44,591 nucleotides of DNA from a virus. This document shows positions 5,748-43,369 of this stretch, one piece after another. The stretch's first letter is position 1. Each line of letters starts with the position of its first letter. The notes beneath the pieces are model-generated. The model ran no database searches and had not been told where the DNA came from. It worked only from the letters and a program-made list of their open reading frames with translations. The stretch is taken from IMG/VR virus record IMGVR_UViG_3300029267_003948, positions 1 through 44,591 of that record; one strand, given 5' to 3'. Made by a program: the position numbers and the translations under genes.

Positions 5748-7850
5748 TCAGTCCTCGTCGTCCACGTACTCTTGCATCGCCTGCACAAGAAGACCCCGTG
5801 CAACAGCATCCAGAGGCTCCTTAGCCGCCCGGATCTCGCTGATCTCGATGGGGAACTTTTTACGTTTGTCCTCGAAGACTTGGGTGAAGAACTCGAGGAA
5901 CCCACCGGCCTTGGACGTACCGCCGCTGACGACGATGGGGATCGGCTTCGGCAGCGAGAACTTGCCCTGGATCTTCATGAACTCGCTCGCGACGTTGTCG
6001 AGCGCGTACTCGATGAGGCTCTTGTAGTAGACCACCAGAGCCTCTTCTTCACGGCTCTGCGGGTGCATGAGGTTGAGCCCCTTCTCCTTGAGGCTACACA
6101 TGCGAGCCTGCGTAGAGCCCGTGGACTTCGCGGCACCGTGGTCGATCCAGTCCCCACAGTTATGAACCGTCATGCCTGGAGAACTGAAAGAGTGGTGTTC
6201 CGACCCCACACGGATGTCGTAGACCTCCCCATCATGCTCCACTTCGGAAACCGAAGCGACCTTGTAGGTGACGAAGGCGGGGAATCTGTCGAACACTTGG
6301 TGGCCTTCGACTGTGAGCATCGTGTCGAACAGATTCTTCGCTACGTGGCCGTTGATCCTGATCTCGTAGCACGGTTTGCGACCTTCGATTTGGACACCAC
6401 GTGCGTTCACGCCGCCGAGGCGTGGCTCCCGTTTGAGGATTGAATGTTCGATCCCGAAACGGTTGAGTAGATGGTGAGCCAACATGACGACAGGCACCGA
6501 TGTGTTCGTGATCGTGTGACGCTTGAGCTCCTCATGGGAGTCGCTGTCCATCAGACCATGAAGAATTCCGAGTGCCATCTGGTTGCCGATCTTGGAGGGA
6601 TCAAGCGGGCACCGTTTTGTCCCCTCATCATCGTAGAACTTTTCCTTGAAATGGCAGGCCACCGGTGTGATGTGAAGTTTGAGGCGCGTGAGGTTTTCGG
6701 CGGGATCGTCCACGATCTCCGGTTCTCGATGGAACAGGCGGAAACACAAGTCTGTATACTCTTCGACAAGATGTTGATCCCGGCGGTTGATGGCAAACTG
6801 GACATAAGACGGCCTTTCGGCATGAGGACCACATGAACCATCGCCGAGGAACATCCCCATCAGACGCCCCAACCCACGCGCCCCAGCAACCGTGACGTTT
6901 TTTCCGTCTTGCCTACCGAAATAGTAGCTCGATCCGCTGTCCCGGTCGGACTGGATCGTCGCGATACCCACGGTATCCCCCTCACGAAGATCCCCTGCCT
7001 CAACCCACTCCCATCCGAAACGACGTTGGACAAATACCCGATGGTCGTGTGTGAGACGGTGAGGGAAAGCAGGGAGATTCTCGAGTTGAACCTCGATGAG
7101 ATGGCGCCGGGTCCCGTTCGACATCTTCTCAAGGACAGGCACGAAAACACCGTATGCGTCGAGGATTTCGTCACCTTCGCGCACCTCCTCCATCGTTTTA
7201 AGCCCTTCCCGCGTGACGACCGGGAAGTCTCCTGAGAGACAGCGCGCGACGCTAAAACTCAGACCCTCGATGGTGCCCATGGCAAGCGCCACGTTGGTCA
7301 TGCCGGACCCGAACGAGAATGCGATGCCGGAGAAACCATCCTTCGCGCACTCGGAGTAGATGATCGCCAGCGCCTCGTTGCTCGGGTACGCCTTGTAGCC
7401 GCACTCGTTGACGATCCGCTCGAGAACGCCTCGGTGGTACACCACGTCCCGGTCCGGATCATCGACCGGAGCCGCCGGCACAGAGAAGTAGCAGACCTCC
7501 TTCTCTTCCTTCGGCTCACCGAGCACATGCTTGACCAAGATGCCGAGGATCTCGAGTGCATCGATCTCCCCAGCCGCGATCAGGCCGCTCTGAAGCGGGC
7601 GCCGAACTTCGCGACTGAACATGTTGGCCATGTCGTAGGCCGCATCCCCCACGATGACGAGCCCGTCGTCCGTTGAGACGTAGTTGACGCCCGACAGCTT
7701 GAGCATCTTGCGGTGCTCGGACGGCAGATCGAGGAAGGCGTCACGAATGCGGTTCGTGATGACGCCTTCCTTGGTACGACGGGCAGCCACGATGTTCATC
7801 GTGCCCATGTCGAGCCCGACCCCCAGGACTGGTTTTTCACTATCGCTCAT
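5748..7850 (-). CDS. Actin-like (MreB/ParM-type) ATPase interrupted by an intein
   Basis: This 700-aa precursor contains 339 aa of host protein and a 361-aa intein (residues 204-564). The extein has the actin/Hsp70 nucleotide-binding signatures: phosphate 1 (VGLDMGTMNIVAARR, 11-25), phosphate 2 (FSFGSGMTNVALA, 178-190) and the adenosine motif (IPIVVSGGTSKAGG, 637-650). The first Asp usual in phosphate 2 is Ser here. Joined extein reads SFSVAR-CGDWIDHG, which matches the MreB-type SxxR-GGDxxD segment. Length after splicing equals that of bacterial MreB-like filaments. Phage actin homologues build filaments that position DNA or virions; the role here is unknown. Start ATG 7850 has GGAG 8 nt upstream and overlaps the stop of the preceding gene by 4 nt, suggesting a coupled pair. 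Confidence 0.8.
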   Translation of the reverse strand: MSDSEKPVLGVGLDMGTMNIVAARRTKEGVITNRIRDAFLDLPSEHRKMLKLSGVNYVSTDDGLVIVGDAAYDMANMFSREVRRPLQSGLIAAGEIDALEILGILVKHVLGEPKEEKEVCYFSVPAAPVDDPDRDVVYHRGVLERIVNECGYKAYPSNEALAIIYSECAKDGFSGIAFSFGSGMTNVALAMGTIEGLSFSVARCLSGDFPVVTREGLKTMEEVREGDEILDAYGVFVPVLEKMSNGTRRHLIEVQLENLPAFPHRLTHDHRVFVQRRFGWEWVEAGDLREGDTVGIATIQSDRDSGSSYYFGRQDGKNVTVAGARGLGRLMGMFLGDGSCGPHAERPSYVQFAINRRDQHLVEEYTDLCFRLFHREPEIVDDPAENLTRLKLHITPVACHFKEKFYDDEGTKRCPLDPSKIGNQMALGILHGLMDSDSHEELKRHTITNTSVPVVMLAHHLLNRFGIEHSILKREPRLGGVNARGVQIEGRKPCYEIRINGHVAKNLFDTMLTVEGHQVFDRFPAFVTYKVASVSEVEHDGEVYDIRVGSEHHSFSSPGMTVHNCGDWIDHGAAKSTGSTQARMCSLKEKGLNLMHPQSREEEALVVYYKSLIEYALDNVASEFMKIQGKFSLPKPIPIVVSGGTSKAGGFLEFFTQVFEDKRKKFPIEISEIRAAKEPLDAVARGLLVQAMQEYVDDED
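6159..7241 (-). mobile_element. Intein with LAGLIDADG homing endonuclease
   Basis: The 361-aa insertion has every splicing block. It begins with nucleophile Cys (CLSGDFPVVTREGLK), has block B T-x-x-H (THDH, precursor residues 267-270), block F (VYDIRVGSEHHSF) and ends VHN followed by Cys of the extein. Thus C1, the penultimate His, the terminal Asn and the +1 Cys are all intact. Two LAGLIDADG motifs lie between the splicing blocks: GRLMGMFLGDGS (acid D337) and ILHGLMDSDS (acid D437). Both splicing and DNA cleavage look competent. The frame is continuous with the extein on both sides. Insertion is in the conserved nucleotide-binding region just after phosphate 2, as inteins usually prefer. Confidence 0.93.
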
Positions 7851-26454: not shown

Positions 26455-28134
26455 CTACCCAAGGAAGTCGCGCAGGCGTCCGGCCACACCCTCAGGATCG
26501 CTTTTGACCTCGGACTCCCAAATCACGAGGCACTCGAGGCCGACTTCGGCATACGCCTCGATGAGCTCGGACTCGTGCTGCTCAGGCCAAACGCCCGTGA
26601 ACTGCTCGCTGTGCCAGAAATCTCCGTTCACCTCCACCACTTTGCGGAGATCGCGGAAAGGATGGCCATGTACGGGACCGCGCAACACGAAATCAGGGTT
26701 CTTGTGACGCCCGAGGCGGGGGAGCCACCTCCAGAACGTGCGGTTCCCGGTGTACAGAAGACGGGGCTCCATCTCTTGAACCATGCGTTCAGGACCATTC
26801 GGTTCTCGGGAACTGCTCTGTGCGTGGAGCATCATCCGAGCGAAGTCCCGGTCCTGCATCGGATGTGTCATGCCATACCGATCCGCCAAATCTTCGAGGG
26901 TCTCGGCTTCGGTTCCGTACTCCGGAAATTCGTATCCCACTTTGGCGAGACACTCACGCAGAACCTTCTCCTTTACCCGAGGCCACGCGAACGGGTTGTC
27001 GTTGCCCCGGAGAATGGGACGTTTACCTTCTAACGCGGCTTGAACCTGCTCGTAGAGAATGGACCCTTGAGCGAAAGGGCTTATAGCCCCGTAACGCTCC
27101 ATGTTGGTCTTTTCGGTTTTTGTACGAGTCTCTGGATGTTGTTGAGGGTTCTCAACACCCCACCGTTCCAACATGGTCCGTAGACGACGTGCGCGAGTCA
27201 CCGCTTCAGCATCCCGAAACATCCAGACGACACACACCTGTCGGTGCCTCTTCATCTGGGTCAACGAGGTGCTCTCGTGCCCACACAAACACGGCTCAGG
27301 AGCTTCCGTGTCAGGCCAGCCTTCGCAGATCGCCTTGTGGCGGCTCGTGACCTTGGTGAACACCTCGTCGCAGTGAGGACAGATCTCGTAGTTGCCGGAA
27401 ACGATCAGCTCTTCTCTCCGGGCCTTTTCGCGCTCTCCCCGAGCACGCGCCAGCTCGGCATACCAAGTCGCGGATTGCAGAAACGAAACAGCCCCGTGAC
27501 GCTCCAGTGTGGTCTGCTCGGTACGTCGTCGGATCTCAGGAACCTGCTGCGGGTTCTCGGCCCCGTGACGGTCAAGGTTTGTCGCGCGGATCTTCTCCTT
27601 GATCTCCTCGGACGCGAAAACATTGTCGGCGCCGTACCGCTCCCGATTCGTGCGTCGCCGTTTCCTCTGCACCTTCTTGGACTTCAGATGATGATCAACC
27701 CCGTATTTGCGACGTGCCGTATCCCGCGTCTTCTCCTTGACCTCATCGCTCTGCCCGACGTTGTCGACGCCGTACTTGGCCTGCGTCGTCTTCTTGCGTT
27801 TGGCACCTGAAGAACGCGCGACCACTGGAGCTCCAGGGAACCGGCTCTCGTACTCCTTGCGCTTCATCCCGTCGTGAGCGCGCTTGAGATGGTCGCTCAG
27901 ACGCTTCACTCGGACTTCTGTGCCCTCAGCAGCACAGAGAAGACACCCGACATAGTCCTCGTTCTCAACCTTCTCAGGCGCCCACAAACCGCGACCAAAA
28001 TGCCTGTCGAAATTGAACTCCGACGGCGGCACACCGATCACCTCATCCCACTTGGAGCACCCATTCGTGTGCTTGGGGACGGCTTTGGGGGATGAGAGCG
28101 GTTTTTGGCAGGCCGGACAGCGCAACTCGGTCAT
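26455..28134 (-). CDS. Large homing endonuclease, zinc fingers plus Vsr-like PD-(D/E)xK domain
   Basis: The 559-aa protein starts with a zinc finger (C6-x2-C9, H22, C26) and further C/H-rich fingers near residues 64-87, 252-270 and 282-301. Between and after them are repeats of the type ERYGADNVFASEEIKEKIRA (residues about 119-216 and 323-350), known from phage homing-type nucleases. The C-terminal domain has PDF (480-482), VVEVNGDFWHS (499-509) and LECLVIWESEV (533-543), the pattern of Vsr-like nucleases. It sits between two structural genes with its own AT-rich leader and no role in virion assembly. A free-standing homing endonuclease is the best reading; target and activity are unknown. 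Confidence 0.8.
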   Translation of the reverse strand: MTELRCPACQKPLSSPKAVPKHTNGCSKWDEVIGVPPSEFNFDRHFGRGLWAPEKVENEDYVGCLLCAAEGTEVRVKRLSDHLKRAHDGMKRKEYESRFPGAPVVARSSGAKRKKTTQAKYGVDNVGQSDEVKEKTRDTARRKYGVDHHLKSKKVQRKRRRTNRERYGADNVFASEEIKEKIRATNLDRHGAENPQQVPEIRRRTEQTTLERHGAVSFLQSATWYAELARARGEREKARREELIVSGNYEICPHCDEVFTKVTSRHKAICEGWPDTEAPEPCLCGHESTSLTQMKRHRQVCVVWMFRDAEAVTRARRLRTMLERWGVENPQQHPETRTKTEKTNMERYGAISPFAQGSILYEQVQAALEGKRPILRGNDNPFAWPRVKEKVLRECLAKVGYEFPEYGTEAETLEDLADRYGMTHPMQDRDFARMMLHAQSSSREPNGPERMVQEMEPRLLYTGNRTFWRWLPRLGRHKNPDFVLRGPVHGHPFRDLRKVVEVNGDFWHSEQFTGVWPEQHESELIEAYAEVGLECLVIWESEVKSDPEGVAGRLRDFLG

Positions 28135-38311: not shown

Positions 38312-38881
38312 CTATAGGCGCTCCAGCGCATTTTCCCTCAAGAACGTGTGAATTTCCGCAGAGTCCCTAAACCACTCGGCCTCGAGCCGCAGATGAGAAA
38401 AGCGTGCGTGTAAGGAGGCTTCCGTCTCCATCGTCCCCGAAACTGTCCCTAGCAAGACAAGCTTCTTCGCGTTTGCTGTCTGGAGCTCGCTGATGCGGCG
38501 GTCCACATCTTGCGTCCAACCCACTTTGATTGGTCCACCAGGGCCAGCCTGGACGAAGTAGACAACACCATCGCGCTCCTTGGGTGCGACGTACTGTTCT
38601 TTGTACCGCACCTCCACAGCCTGAACACGACCGTAGGAGTCGAGCGACTGCCACAAACCAGTTGGAAGGACGCCGTACAAGGGAACGTCGTCGTCGGGGC
38701 CGTAGGCATAAGCTACCCCGGCGTCGGAAACGGGATCCCCAAGACACACGAAATCCGTTCGGACGACACGCTTACCATCAAAAATCCGAACTCGGTGCGT
38801 CGGTACGAAGTCCGCTGCGATCGACATGGAGGAGTAGCGCCTCTCCACGTCGATGCGCGTGACGATAGGTGGACGAGCCAC
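38312..38881 (-). CDS. T5orf172-type GIY-YIG nuclease
   Basis: The 189-aa protein ends in a T5orf172 (MUG113) domain, a compact GIY-YIG nuclease variant: VVYFVQAGPGGPIKVGWTQD (106-125), then ISELQTANAKKLVLLG, E153, LHARF (157-161) and EAEWF (167-171). The N-terminal 100 residues hold a small beta domain of unknown use. GTG 38881 is the longest start; ATG 38827 is equally possible, since the first 18 residues are not conserved-looking. It lies among other nuclease genes and is probably a mobile or accessory nuclease rather than a structural protein. Confidence 0.72.
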   Translation of the reverse strand: MARPPIVTRIDVERRYSSMSIAADFVPTHRVRIFDGKRVVRTDFVCLGDPVSDAGVAYAYGPDDDVPLYGVLPTGLWQSLDSYGRVQAVEVRYKEQYVAPKERDGVVYFVQAGPGGPIKVGWTQDVDRRISELQTANAKKLVLLGTVSGTMETEASLHARFSHLRLEAEWFRDSAEIHTFLRENALERL

Positions 38882-38913: not shown

Positions 38914-39561
38914 TCAGGGATTCGGGCTGTCGAGCATCCAGATCTCGATAGCCCTCTCGATCGCGTACTCACGCGGCATGGCACCAAGCTGGTACGCCTC
39001 GTAGAGGCGCACGGCGCGACGCTCCATTGACGCTCGGATCTGATCTTCGGGCGTACCGAAGATTCGCAGAACGTTGAAAGTCTCGCGGTACGCCTGAACC
39101 TCCATCGCCCAGCGACCTTCAGCGGTAAAGTACATGAGACCCATCAGGAGCTCACCGTGTTTTTTGTACTGACGCAGGTGCACGAGCTCGTGCCACATCG
39201 TCGGAGCACGACTTGCGTAGGAACGCTCCTCCCACCCGGGCTTGACGAGGATCGCACTCGGGAAGGCAGTCGTGAACTGGTCCCACTGCTCGAAACCCGT
39301 GGGCGCCTTGGGGATGATCTGAACGCCAAGCTCCTTGATCTTCTGCTCGGCAAGGAGATACGCCTCCTTGGGGTCGGAGGGGATCTCACCCTCCTTCGCC
39401 ATTTCCTGCGTTCGCAGGGCGAGCTTCTCGTAGTGAAGGTCCTGCGGGACTCCGTCCTTGTAGACAGGAGGCCCCTGCACCCGCACCGAGTTCAGGGTCT
39501 TGCATCCCGTCAACGAGAAGATGACGCAAAAGAGGAGCGAGAATCTGAGTAGCTTGTTCAT
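38914..39561 (-). CDS. Lipoprotein with HExxH zinc-protease motif
   Basis: This 215-aa protein begins with a signal peptide (LLRFSLLFCVIFSLTGC) with lipobox Cys20, so it should be exported and lipidated. Residues 123-130 read WHELVHLR, giving the HExxH motif of zincin metallopeptidases. A downstream acidic element (WAMEVQAYRE, E154 or E160) could supply the third zinc ligand. The remainder is helical. Phage-encoded lipoproteins can block superinfection or modify the cell envelope; a peptidase role is inferred from the motif. A hairpin overlaps its ribosome-binding site. It sits between two nuclease genes, like cargo in an accessory patch. Confidence 0.65.
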   Translation of the reverse strand: MNKLLRFSLLFCVIFSLTGCKTLNSVRVQGPPVYKDGVPQDLHYEKLALRTQEMAKEGEIPSDPKEAYLLAEQKIKELGVQIIPKAPTGFEQWDQFTTAFPSAILVKPGWEERSYASRAPTMWHELVHLRQYKKHGELLMGLMYFTAEGRWAMEVQAYRETFNVLRIFGTPEDQIRASMERRAVRLYEAYQLGAMPREYAIERAIEIWMLDSPNP

Positions 39562-39581: not shown

Positions 39582-39602
39582 CCCTATAGGAAGAACAGCG
39601 AG

Positions 39603-39713
39603 ATGTGGTGGGTCTACGTCATTCAGAGCACACAGCCGCGCGTCACAAAATCGGGATGTACGGTTCCGGGATTCCACTACGTCGGGTCCACCGACCCAGC
39701 GCGCCACTCGTCG
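39603..39713 (+). pseudogene. Inverted GIY-YIG fragment
   Basis: On the plus strand ATG 39603 opens WWVYVIQSTQPRV, then PGFHYVGSTDPARH. This matches the beginning of the second GIY-YIG domain of the minus-strand gene next to it (YWVYVIQSEQPRF, PGFFYVGMAVDPS). The DNA at 39609-39629 is identical, over 21 bases, to the reverse complement of 40064-40084. Similarity stops at about 39713, where the frame runs into antisense of the neighbouring gene, so the domain is truncated before its catalytic Arg/Glu region. AGGAAG precedes the ATG. It is the remnant of a second, oppositely oriented GIY-YIG gene, or of an inverted duplication. Confidence 0.75.
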
Positions 39714-40867
39714 AGTGTTGGAGGTTTCCAGCTCGGATCTCGCACCCAAGGATGCGAAGGCCCTTCTCCTCGACAGAGGTCCGAGTCCTTGGAAGACCAT
39801 TTGAGACGCCCTTCTCCACGCTTCTGCCGTTTCAAAGCGTACTCAGCACGTAAAGCCTCTGAACGTGTGAAATACGGACCGTAAAGTGCCCTTGCCACCC
39901 AAGGGCGGTGTTTAGCGGTGTACTTTCCACCTCCTTTCAAACCGGGCTGACCGTTCGCTTTGATGCCGTTGTGCTTCCTGAGCCGCACGGACGGATCTAC
40001 TGCCATTCCCACGTAGAAAAACCCCGGAAGTTCTTGCCCTCGTGCGCCAAACCTCGGTTGTTCGCTCTGAATGACGTAGACCCAGTACAGCTTGGAAGGC
40101 AACGTAGGGACCACTGTGTTGAGGCACTCCCCGTCCCCCAGAGAGGTCTCGATCTCTGCCGCCTCCTTCTCCAATGCTTCAATTTCACTTACACATTCGT
40201 GACGCACCGACAGCACGGCTGTCGAAAAGTCTTTGCCATTGAGAGCCTCGATGTGCTGACCTTTTCGAGCTTTCGATTTGTGGTTGTTGAACCGAAGGTC
40301 GTAGTGGCTTGATGAACCAAGATAGTAAGTTCCGTCTGCAAACCGGATCTCGTACACGACCCACTGCCGTTTGAGTTCCCTGTTTTTACGAATCTCGTCT
40401 TTGTTCCGAGCGTAGTACTCCCGATCTCGATGGCGGTTTTTTTTCCGGTAACGACGAACCTTCTCTTTATTTTTGGAGCGCCACTTCTTCTGACGCGCTT
40501 TCACTTTTTCCGGGTGCTGAGCCGCGTACTCTCGGGCCGCCTCTCGTCGCTCATCCGCATGTTGTTGATACGAACGACGGGCTTGCTCCCTCACCTTATC
40601 AGGGTTGTCTTTCTTCCACTTCTTGTCGTACGCAGCTCGCGCTGCTTTGACTTCAGGACGAGCTCGACGTTTGTCTCGTGACGCTTTCACCTTCTCTGGG
40701 TTTGCGGATTTCCAAGACCTATTTGCTTCGCGCAATTTCTCCTTGTTGGCTTGCCGATACTGTCGCTGACAACCCTTGCACCAAACCTGCAACCCATCCT
40801 TTCGAGATCGGTCCTTTCCAAATTCCGCCAGAGAACGCTCCTCATGACATTTTGAGCAGGTTTTCAC
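39677..40867 (-). CDS. Zinc-finger protein with two GIY-YIG nuclease domains
   Basis: The 396-aa protein starts at GTG 40867. It has an N-terminal zinc finger (C4-x2-C7, C30-x2-C33) of the type seen in phage HNH/homing nucleases, then a highly basic Lys/Arg helical region to residue 165. Two GIY-YIG domains follow. The first (169-255) has VYEIRFADGTYYLGSS. The second (261-355) is SLX1/UvrC-like, with YWVYVIQS, FFYVGM, GGGKYTAKHRPW and the EYALKRQKR helix. The last 12 codons are antisense to the inverted GIY-YIG fragment, so the original C-terminus may have been replaced at a rearrangement junction. A homing endonuclease is likely. Confidence 0.75.
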   Translation of the reverse strand: MKTCSKCHEERSLAEFGKDRSRKDGLQVWCKGCQRQYRQANKEKLREANRSWKSANPEKVKASRDKRRARPEVKAARAAYDKKWKKDNPDKVREQARRSYQQHADERREAAREYAAQHPEKVKARQKKWRSKNKEKVRRYRKKNRHRDREYYARNKDEIRKNRELKRQWVVYEIRFADGTYYLGSSSHYDLRFNNHKSKARKGQHIEALNGKDFSTAVLSVRHECVSEIEALEKEAAEIETSLGDGECLNTVVPTLPSKLYWVYVIQSEQPRFGARGQELPGFFYVGMAVDPSVRLRKHNGIKANGQPGLKGGGKYTAKHRPWVARALYGPYFTRSEALRAEYALKRQKRGEGRLKWSSKDSDLCRGEGPSHPWVRDPSWKPPTLDEWRAGSVDPT

Positions 40868-40919
40868 CTGCCCAAAATACCACGAAAATGGCGAGATTCA
40901 AGGTAGCCGAAATACACTG

Positions 40920-40937
40920 TAGACCCAACATGGTCTA
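40920..40937 (-). terminator. Hairpin at the stop codon of the 100-aa gene
   Basis: A 6-bp stem (TAGACC / GGTCTA) with a 6-nt loop begins with the stop codon itself. No U-tract follows. It may mark the end of the preceding transcript before the nuclease patch. Confidence 0.35.
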
Positions 40938-41239: not shown

Positions 41240-43369
41240 CTACACGTTGAGGAACCAGCCGGTCTGCTTCTCGAACGTGCTGGCGAGCTCTTCCTTCGAC
41301 ACCGTGTATTTCGCCACGACGCCCAGCTCACCTTTCGTGTTGTGAGCCAAGAACATCATGTTGCACTGGCCGTCATCACCCATGACGACCCCACACTGCG
41401 TTCCCTTGGAAGCCGTCCGATTCGGCCAGCGAAAAGACACAAGACTCTTGTACGCCTTGATCTCCCGGGCTCCAAGAAGCCGCTCGAGCTTGTGCACACC
41501 GCCAAGAGCTTCGAGGATCTCGCTGGCCTTCTTGTCTCGGTCCGCTTTGAGGCTGTCGATGAGCTTGCTGACATCGGCCTCGGGCATCTTCTCGAGCGAG
41601 TCTTTCGACGGAGACTTGCGACCAGCCTCGTTGAGAAGACTCAAGGCATAGGCAACCTGCTTCTCCGAAGCCACGTTTTCCTCACCTTGCATGGTCTCGA
41701 TCAGGGTCGAGATCTCGTCCTTGGTCTTCTTTTTGAGCTCAGCCTCGGTGTAGTCCTTCCCCTTTTCCTCGGCGAGGTCCATAGCGAACTCAACTTGTGC
41801 TGCCGTGGCCTTGTCGCTCTTGGCTTCAGCCTCCGCCGCGAGCTTCGAGTGAACGATCTTGAGCTGGATGACCGGGTAAGCCGGGAACCCTTGTCCCGGC
41901 TCCCACATGAGCGGCATGTCCTGTCCACGGTCAGCCAACATCTCCTCCGCCTCCTCGATACCCCGGAGCGTCACGCCCGGAATGATGGGGTCGAAATCCG
42001 AGCTCACCAGACGAGTTGAGATGCGCCGAGGCTCCTTCTCATCGGGCTGAAAAGTGATCTCGACAAGATCGCCCTCACGCAGGTTCTTCAGCATCTGGTG
42101 CTGCGAGAACTCGTCGATGGTGAAGTCTCGGATGTTCCAGTTGATGTTGGCCTCTTTGGCGACCTCGGAAAGCAGAGCATCCCGAAACTCGGCGCTGTTC
42201 TTGGCGAGGCTGATGAGAGCCTGAGTGGCGTTCTTGGTCGTCATGGTCTTGTCCTTCTTCTTGCGCTTCTTGGGGAGGCTGTCCCAAATCGCGCTGAGGA
42301 TTTGGAGATCATCCTTGTCGAGACGAGGGGCTTGCTCGACCTTGTCTGAGTTCTTGGTCTTCTTGGAGGCGTTGTGTAGGAACTGGCCCACAGTCTTGCC
42401 AGCCTTCGACGCCTTCTTCTCGAGGTAGCTGTCGAGCACATCCGTCTCGTCCACCTGGAACTCGAGGTCTTCGAGCTCGCTGCCGTACTCTTTCCAGTAG
42501 TCGCGGCCCTCTTTGAACGACATCAGCTCACTGATGTAGAAGGGTTCGCCACCACCAGTATCTTCGAGCTCCTCACGGATCTCAGGAGGAAGTTGTTCAA
42601 CATCATTCTCTGGGAGCTTCTGGTCAAACCCGAGAAGAGGCCAGACGTAGTAGCCGACATAGTCGCAGTCGAAGCAGCCAGAGCCCACGGTTTGAATGAC
42701 ACGCCCGCCCGCCTCCTTGAGCGACGCCACCTGCGTCGCAAGCATCCGGGTTCCAGTGCCGGGAGGCGCGTCTTCGCTGAGCTCCAGAATTGAGTTCTTT
42801 ACACGGTCTACCTTGCCGTCCTTCAGGAAAATCTCGCGCTCGTACTCGAAGATGTTGTCCCCTTCGCCGGTGATCGAGACGTAGTTGTCGTCCGCCACGA
42901 TGCGAACCGAGCTGAGCTGTCCCTGCAAGCCACCGCCACCGGCCAGATCAAGGACCATCTGCTCCGGAGTGCGTCCCGAAGCTTGGGCCGCTTCACCGAA
43001 CATGCTGTGAAGCTTCTTCTTGATCTCCTCGGGCTCGTCCCCCAGCGCACCGTACTCCACGTCCACGCCTTGGTACCGGTGAGGGTCCCTGTTGGGGGTG
43101 AGGCGGTTGGTTTTCAGCGCCTCTTCAGGGATCTGACGCTGTTGAGCACCACCACCACCACCGCCCCCACCTTCTTGCTGCTGACGTGCTCGGTTCCAGT
43201 GCTCGTAGATCCGTTGCTGCTCGTGGTCCGGTAGCGAGACGAACACGTTCTCGTTGCCCGTCTCCGGGTTCCGAAAGCGACGGCCCTTCATCGCCTCCAG
43301 GAACTCTGGGGCGTACTTCGCTCGCCGACGCATCGGCGGACGTGTGAAGAGCTCGAGCGCCAGACCCAT
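41240..43369 (-). CDS. Acetyltransferase-fold structural protein with long C-terminal extension
   Basis: The 709-aa protein begins with a basic segment and a Gly8 run (residues 67-74). Residues 155-250 resemble a GNAT-type fold (TGEGDNIFEYEREIFLKDG, GTGTRMLATQVASLKEAGG, CDYVGYYVWPLLGFD). A helical region ends in TKNATQALISLAKNSAEFRD (378-397), which parallels the end of the neighbouring 401-aa protein. Beyond that, 300 extra residues include two similar repeats (ATAAQVEFAMDLAEEKGKDY, 521-540, and ASEKQVAYALSLLNEAGRKS, 567-586) that resemble DUF3072. Acyl-CoA-binding residues cannot be confirmed. It is probably a head-associated protein. Confidence 0.6.
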   Translation of the reverse strand: MGLALELFTRPPMRRRAKYAPEFLEAMKGRRFRNPETGNENVFVSLPDHEQQRIYEHWNRARQQQEGGGGGGGGAQQRQIPEEALKTNRLTPNRDPHRYQGVDVEYGALGDEPEEIKKKLHSMFGEAAQASGRTPEQMVLDLAGGGGLQGQLSSVRIVADDNYVSITGEGDNIFEYEREIFLKDGKVDRVKNSILELSEDAPPGTGTRMLATQVASLKEAGGRVIQTVGSGCFDCDYVGYYVWPLLGFDQKLPENDVEQLPPEIREELEDTGGGEPFYISELMSFKEGRDYWKEYGSELEDLEFQVDETDVLDSYLEKKASKAGKTVGQFLHNASKKTKNSDKVEQAPRLDKDDLQILSAIWDSLPKKRKKKDKTMTTKNATQALISLAKNSAEFRDALLSEVAKEANINWNIRDFTIDEFSQHQMLKNLREGDLVEITFQPDEKEPRRISTRLVSSDFDPIIPGVTLRGIEEAEEMLADRGQDMPLMWEPGQGFPAYPVIQLKIVHSKLAAEAEAKSDKATAAQVEFAMDLAEEKGKDYTEAELKKKTKDEISTLIETMQGEENVASEKQVAYALSLLNEAGRKSPSKDSLEKMPEADVSKLIDSLKADRDKKASEILEALGGVHKLERLLGAREIKAYKSLVSFRWPNRTASKGTQCGVVMGDDGQCNMMFLAHNTKGELGVVAKYTVSKEELASTFEKQTGWFLNV

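Follow-up and report, generated by a model that had tools for sequence, protein, structure and literature searches.

A GIY-YIG fragment on the plus strand of the window (IMG/VR record IMGVR_UViG_3300029267_003948, analysed over its full 44,591 nucleotides) is very probably what is left of the 5′ end of a resident, single-copy Slx1-like gene, here called S, which was destroyed by the antisense insertion of a putative homing endonuclease gene, M; the second GIY-YIG domain of M (D2) may take its place. The insertion of M into S is well supported by sequence comparison: a remnant of S was found together with syntenic intact and occupied sites, the arrangement recurs at other loci and D2 has a separate ancestry. 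Beyond the insertion, we infer targeted homing and rescue, in which M would cleave S and D2 would functionally replace it.

The plus-strand fragment

The S remnant (39603-39704, plus strand) begins with the start codon of a standalone Slx1-like GIY-YIG gene and covers about 34 of its codons. It was recognised by tblastn, by an S-family HMM and by its intact syntenic homologue in a related phage (L013, 5007-5360). The translation of the plus strand from 39603 to 39701 is MWWVYVIQSTQPRVTKSGCTVPGFHYVGSTDPA. An earlier note on this DNA had described the plus strand from 39603 onward as the start of a GIY-YIG domain similar to D2, which was borne out with an alignment E-value of 1e-8 and 56% identity. 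The fragment is still closer to the intact standalone S of L013, with 79% identity over 33 codons. GIY-YIG similarity beyond a short inverted match had been set beforehand as the test of the note's reading, and it extends well past those 21 bp. The S-type similarity ends near 39705, after ~34 codons, so that the complete catalytic domain is absent, and from there on the frame just reads M in antisense. The HMM matched the window fragment with 6.3e-8, while a value of ≤1e-3 was reached in one out of 294 control windows used as a chance control. Upstream of the S start (39588-39602, plus strand), the motif AGGAAG lies 9 nt ahead of the ATG, and DNA alignment revealed that the stretch CTATAGG..GAACAGCG is common to the intact S loci L013 and L049 and to L004.

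The perfect 21-bp inverted match between 39609-39629 and 40064-40084 was confirmed and sits within a 38-nt inverted pair of 84% identity (39601-39638 and 40055-40092). Exact matches of 20-22 bp at the same conserved WVYVIQS stretch also join other pairs of S-family genes. The 21-bp identity is by itself unremarkable and, as far as these sequences tell, reflects the conserved stretch. A chance origin of the repeat was dropped because homology accounts for it.

In the window and in L004, the S fragments are truncated at the same point and share the same M-S junction. Between them, pN/pS was 0.20 (Fisher 1.8e-6), as low as between intact genes, with synonymous change near saturation (pS of the neighbouring genes 0.65-0.77). 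Given a shared junction together with constraint at the codon level, either M inserted twice rather recently at the same site, in a site-specific-like manner, or the fragment still matters. To the right of M in the window, the best local alignment to a 3′ remnant of S was no better than those of shuffled sequences; thus, a single junction is visible there. No supported GIY-YIG piece turned up in any frame on the right flank, upstream of M (40868-40934), only a short WVY-like string.

Domain structure of M

M (39677-40867, minus strand) starts with GTG and encodes a putative homing endonuclease of 396 amino acids with two GIY-YIG domains, as seen from its open reading frame, from PF01541 and from an AlphaFold model (pLDDT 90). 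M and the S remnant are arranged tail-to-tail, and the earlier description of a truncated GIY-YIG gene inverted relative to the minus-strand gene was correct. The same applies to the end of M being antisense to the fragment: its last residues (~AGSVDPT) and the stop codon occupy 39677-39704 on the minus strand, with TAG at 39677-39679, and this end was identified as antisense of the S remnant by comparing the junction with those of L004 and L005.

Residues 1-165 (40373-40867) form a CxxC..CxxC Zn-ribbon followed by a long helical stretch with NUMOD-like repeats, as judged from tblastn, PHROGs and the helices of the model; tblastn and PHROGs also showed that this N-terminal part is common to phage HNH/endonuclease VII-type genes. 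It is followed by D1 (residues 167-257, 40097-40369), which is I-TevI-like and aligned with the I-TevI catalytic domain (1mk0) with a VIA-align Z-score of 11.8. D2 (residues 258-387, 39707-40096) is an S-family, Slx1/HIGLE-like domain with Z-scores of 8.8 to 7wme (HIGLE; 108 residues, 2.8 Å) and 8.6 to 6sei_C (Slx1), whereas matches of the D2 range outside the GIY-YIG superfamily stayed at ≤3.8. The two domains are thus of different GIY-YIG types. PF01541 matched M with 51.9 bits in two stretches; D2 alone scored 27.6 and the S of L013 41.9 bits, both above the cut-off of 22.6. NCBIfam gave no match for M or S. The catalytic residues of D2 are kept (Tyr264, Tyr285, Arg295, His299 and Glu342), and their equivalents in D1 (Y172, Y182, R192, H196 and E235) are invariant in the M alignment. 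All parts of M are under purifying selection, which is strongest in D2 (pN/pS 0.18). In an alignment of the M N-terminus used solely to pick search patterns, the row of L007 was shortened by hand. According to the model, M has the plan of a homing endonuclease, namely a nuclease domain joined to putative sequence-recognition modules.

Elsewhere in the window, the minus-strand frame 5748-7850 matches Volactin, an actin-like protein (PF25216, E 1.5e-67), and also holds intein-splicing and LAGLIDADG matches; it is probably a viral actin-like gene with an intein. At 26455-28134 (minus strand), a DUF7487 match is accompanied by a PHROGs homing-endonuclease match (E 3.8e-29).

Intact and occupied alleles at the syntenic site

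The site is defined by two minus-strand flank genes together: on the left a putative lipoprotein gene with a WHELVH motif (38914-39561), having homologues beside S in L013, L004, L049 and L101, and on the right a gene at 41240-43369 with homologues in L013, L004, L049, L099 and L101. An intact plus-strand GIY-YIG gene in related phages, which the earlier note had suggested looking for, was found in L013 (wider locus L034). This phage has the same gene order on the left, a homologue of the right flank gene and, at the same syntenic place, an intact standalone S of 117 amino acids. In L101, too, S is intact and lies between these flank genes, accompanied by two more genes. L004 contains M with a truncated S and a junction identical to that of the window. 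Hence, occupied alleles (window, L004) and an empty allele (L013) are available for the same site.

The S of L049 is full-length, but in its 3′ part it is similar to another S lineage (L055/L057). The region 6007-7290 of this locus consists of S with the foreign 3′ end, an antisense gene (6338-7249) with weak GIY-YIG and NUMOD3 matches and a displaced native S 3′ end (7112-7288) that is 80% like L013. By its layout, a different homing-type gene appears to have entered the same S locus and made S complete again with a 3′ end of foreign origin.

S and M are both absent between the flank genes of L099, and its 82-kb record holds no other S match, so S may be dispensable. L099 was rejected as a pristine empty site: its positions 5866-5953 keep the apparent first codons (MAVFDPKRCS) of a phosphatase-like gene that is whole in L101 (3633-4301), and L099 may therefore be a deletion. 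In the window, a GIY-YIG-related T5orf172/MUG113 gene (38312-38881, minus strand) lies less than 1 kb from the S-M locus and is conserved beside it in relatives.

M and S at other loci

By sequence comparison, M breaks S at three loci besides that of the window, in what appear to be separate events in several environmental phages. In L007, and also in L008, L024 and L027, M is placed antisense between codons 1-20 and codons ~58 to the end of one S. In L012 and L033, M lies in sense orientation between S codons 1-24 and the S tail; L048 shares the flanking genes and carries an intact S whose ends match, so that L033 and L048 are again an occupied and an empty allele. In L005 and L026, S codons 1-41 abut an M in antisense orientation, and the flank gene of this locus adjoins an intact S in L054 and L045. 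The junctions fall at varying positions in S (codons ~20, 24, 35 and 41), with S codons lost there, while codons ~42-58 are absent from every S broken by M. A short CGCC(A) is common to the junctions of the window, L004 and L005.

Six other M-type records (24-619 kb) were searched as a whole. Four had other S-family matches and two had none; the extra matches were remnants adjacent to M or, in a single record, such a remnant repeated at the other end. No S remnant was detectable with the M-type genes of L035/L036, L040 and L029, which means that M is not confined to S. The M-type genes at L035 5200-6393 and L040 5353-6390, with no S remnant nearby, have an extra N-terminal stretch (LDVFDLFG...).

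The S/D2 family

The S family was surveyed at 52 viral loci (L025-L076). S is a single gene of ~350 bp in records of up to 619 kb and one copy was present in 36 of the 37 IMG/VR records tested. Neither 50,697 phage records of INPHARED, searched for the S family, nor 72,556 plasmid records, searched for D2, gave a match. In the tree, all eight D2 domains and four standalone genes formed one clade (support 99/94), while the broken S genes resembled other lineages outside this clade. Consequently, D2 was not copied from the local S, nor is the fragment D2 in flipped form.

The active-site residues Tyr, Tyr, Arg, His and Glu are kept in 44 out of 44 S/D2 sequences. The sole degenerate S is the resident one of L032, outside these 44, in which Arg is changed to Ser and Glu to Thr. 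This full-length gene (6392-6694) stands tail-to-tail with an intact standalone gene of the D2 clade (5926-6390). A 7-residue loop insertion occurs in seven of eight D2 domains compared to two of 36 standalone genes, both of which belong to the D2 clade. It falls within S codons ~42-58, the stretch lost from all S genes broken by M, and could serve to mask the target. Two different invaders leave an intact S domain, as L049 has its foreign 3′ end and the phages with M have D2, which suggests that the activity of S is worth keeping. Replacement of S by D2 is consistent with the single-copy state of S, with the residues conserved throughout the 44 sequences and with the degenerate S of L032 facing a D2-clade copy.

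Proposed history and alternative explanations

In the favoured history, the Zn-ribbon/helical DNA-binding part and the I-TevI-like D1 of M would cut S, and repair of the break would install M in it. The junction of M with S lies at about codon 35; the 3′ two thirds of S are gone, and the stop codon of M comes from the antisense of S. The C-terminal D2, a diverged S domain with its catalytic residues intact, would then take over the role of S. Homing endonuclease genes usually spare their host and sit in introns, inteins or intergenic gaps. Here, a conserved nuclease gene is repeatedly broken by a homing-type gene that carries a homologue of the same gene. The home-and-rescue layout is known from synthetic gene drives. 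It is possible, though less likely than not, that M is a natural home-and-rescue element that targets a conserved single-copy Slx1-like gene, enters it in both orientations and has, fused to itself, a diverged version of that gene's domain that resists cleavage. If D2 replaces S, this would be a natural counterpart of the synthetic layout and a route for a homing element to take over a host function; occupied and empty alleles are at hand.

The same history could have come about by another mechanism, a passive pile-up in which nuclease genes accumulate at a variable site and illegitimate recombination let M disrupt S, with no recognition of S. This is a possible but rather unlikely explanation. 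The varying junctions with their missing codons, the short common CGCC(A) and the M genes of L035, L040 and L029 without S speak for it. However, four separate loci have M within S or abutting it although S is single and only ~350 bp long in records of up to 619 kb, and the same stretch of about codons 42-58 is gone each time. It is improbable that the truncated S still works as a small gene, or serves M as an alternative tail in the manner of invertible gene switches. Its start region and reading frame are kept, and the pN/pS of the window and L004 fragments is as low as that of intact genes, but the region with the catalytic Arg, His and Glu is absent, beyond the junction the frame is nothing but antisense of M, and length and place of the remnant differ in other phages; a switch would moreover yield a broken domain in one orientation.

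The earlier note had offered an inversion or the capture of a second homing gene as the origin of the fragment. Capture got the involvement of a second nuclease gene right and the direction wrong, since it was the minus-strand gene that arrived and broke a standalone S. A version in which a single-domain ancestor of M took D2 from this very S and left the 5′ end behind would suit two homologous and adjacent sequences; it is very improbable, as D2 has the S domain complete, with the stretch that would have stayed behind, and clusters with D2 domains from M genes elsewhere. An inversion or inverted duplication, by which the fragment would be a flipped copy of M's own D2, is scarcely credible despite the perfect 21-bp match and the 38-nt inverted pair: similar exact matches exist between other S genes, the fragment is nearer to the S of L013 than to D2 and has a start region of its own in common with intact S loci. 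It belongs to the resident S lineage represented by the intact gene of L013/L034, while D2 falls into the other, well-supported clade. The reading of a resident S broken by the arrival of M is therefore preferred.

Comparison with known systems

In the open-access literature, no report was found of repeated disruption of a nuclease gene by a homing gene carrying a domain of the same family, and no direct precedent for homing genes inside nuclease genes or for proteins with two GIY-YIG domains. Modular Zn-finger/T5orf172 homing genes are known in phages (PMC10448857). M resembles homing endonucleases of the I-TevI type in the fold of D1 (Z 11.8) and in the plan of a nuclease domain with small DNA-binding modules. 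Unlike these, it has its DNA-binding part at the N-terminus and a second, Slx1-like GIY-YIG domain fused to the C-terminus, and no intron was seen. D2 and S, known here from sequence and model, share the fold (Z 8.4-8.8) and the conserved catalytic residues of Slx1/HIGLE nucleases but, unlike those, were found here in phage-type contigs only.

Free-standing homing endonucleases of the T4 type split phage genes by transposition-like insertion, as mobE does with nrdA of Aeh1 and mobA with T4 gene 60, and the seg genes belong to the same type (PMC2988022). As in the window, a phage homing endonuclease gene is inserted into a coding gene and splits it. Both halves of the host gene work or are thought to work in the mobE and mobA cases (PMC2988022), whereas S is left broken in the window; moreover, the host gene in the window is a GIY-YIG nuclease gene and the invader carries a homologous domain.

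Mobile ORFs of fungal mitochondria bring a foreign C-terminus to their host gene, as described for atp6 of Allomyces and for atp6, atp9, cox2 and nad3 of Glomus (PMC3630166). The inserted endonuclease cassette separates the native 3′ end from the gene and supplies a foreign one that makes it complete again, which is the same layout as that of S in L049. In contrast, S in the window is not restored in frame, and D2 is a candidate substitute only: what may replace S is an entire domain, fused to the endonuclease and placed antisense to the broken phage nuclease gene.
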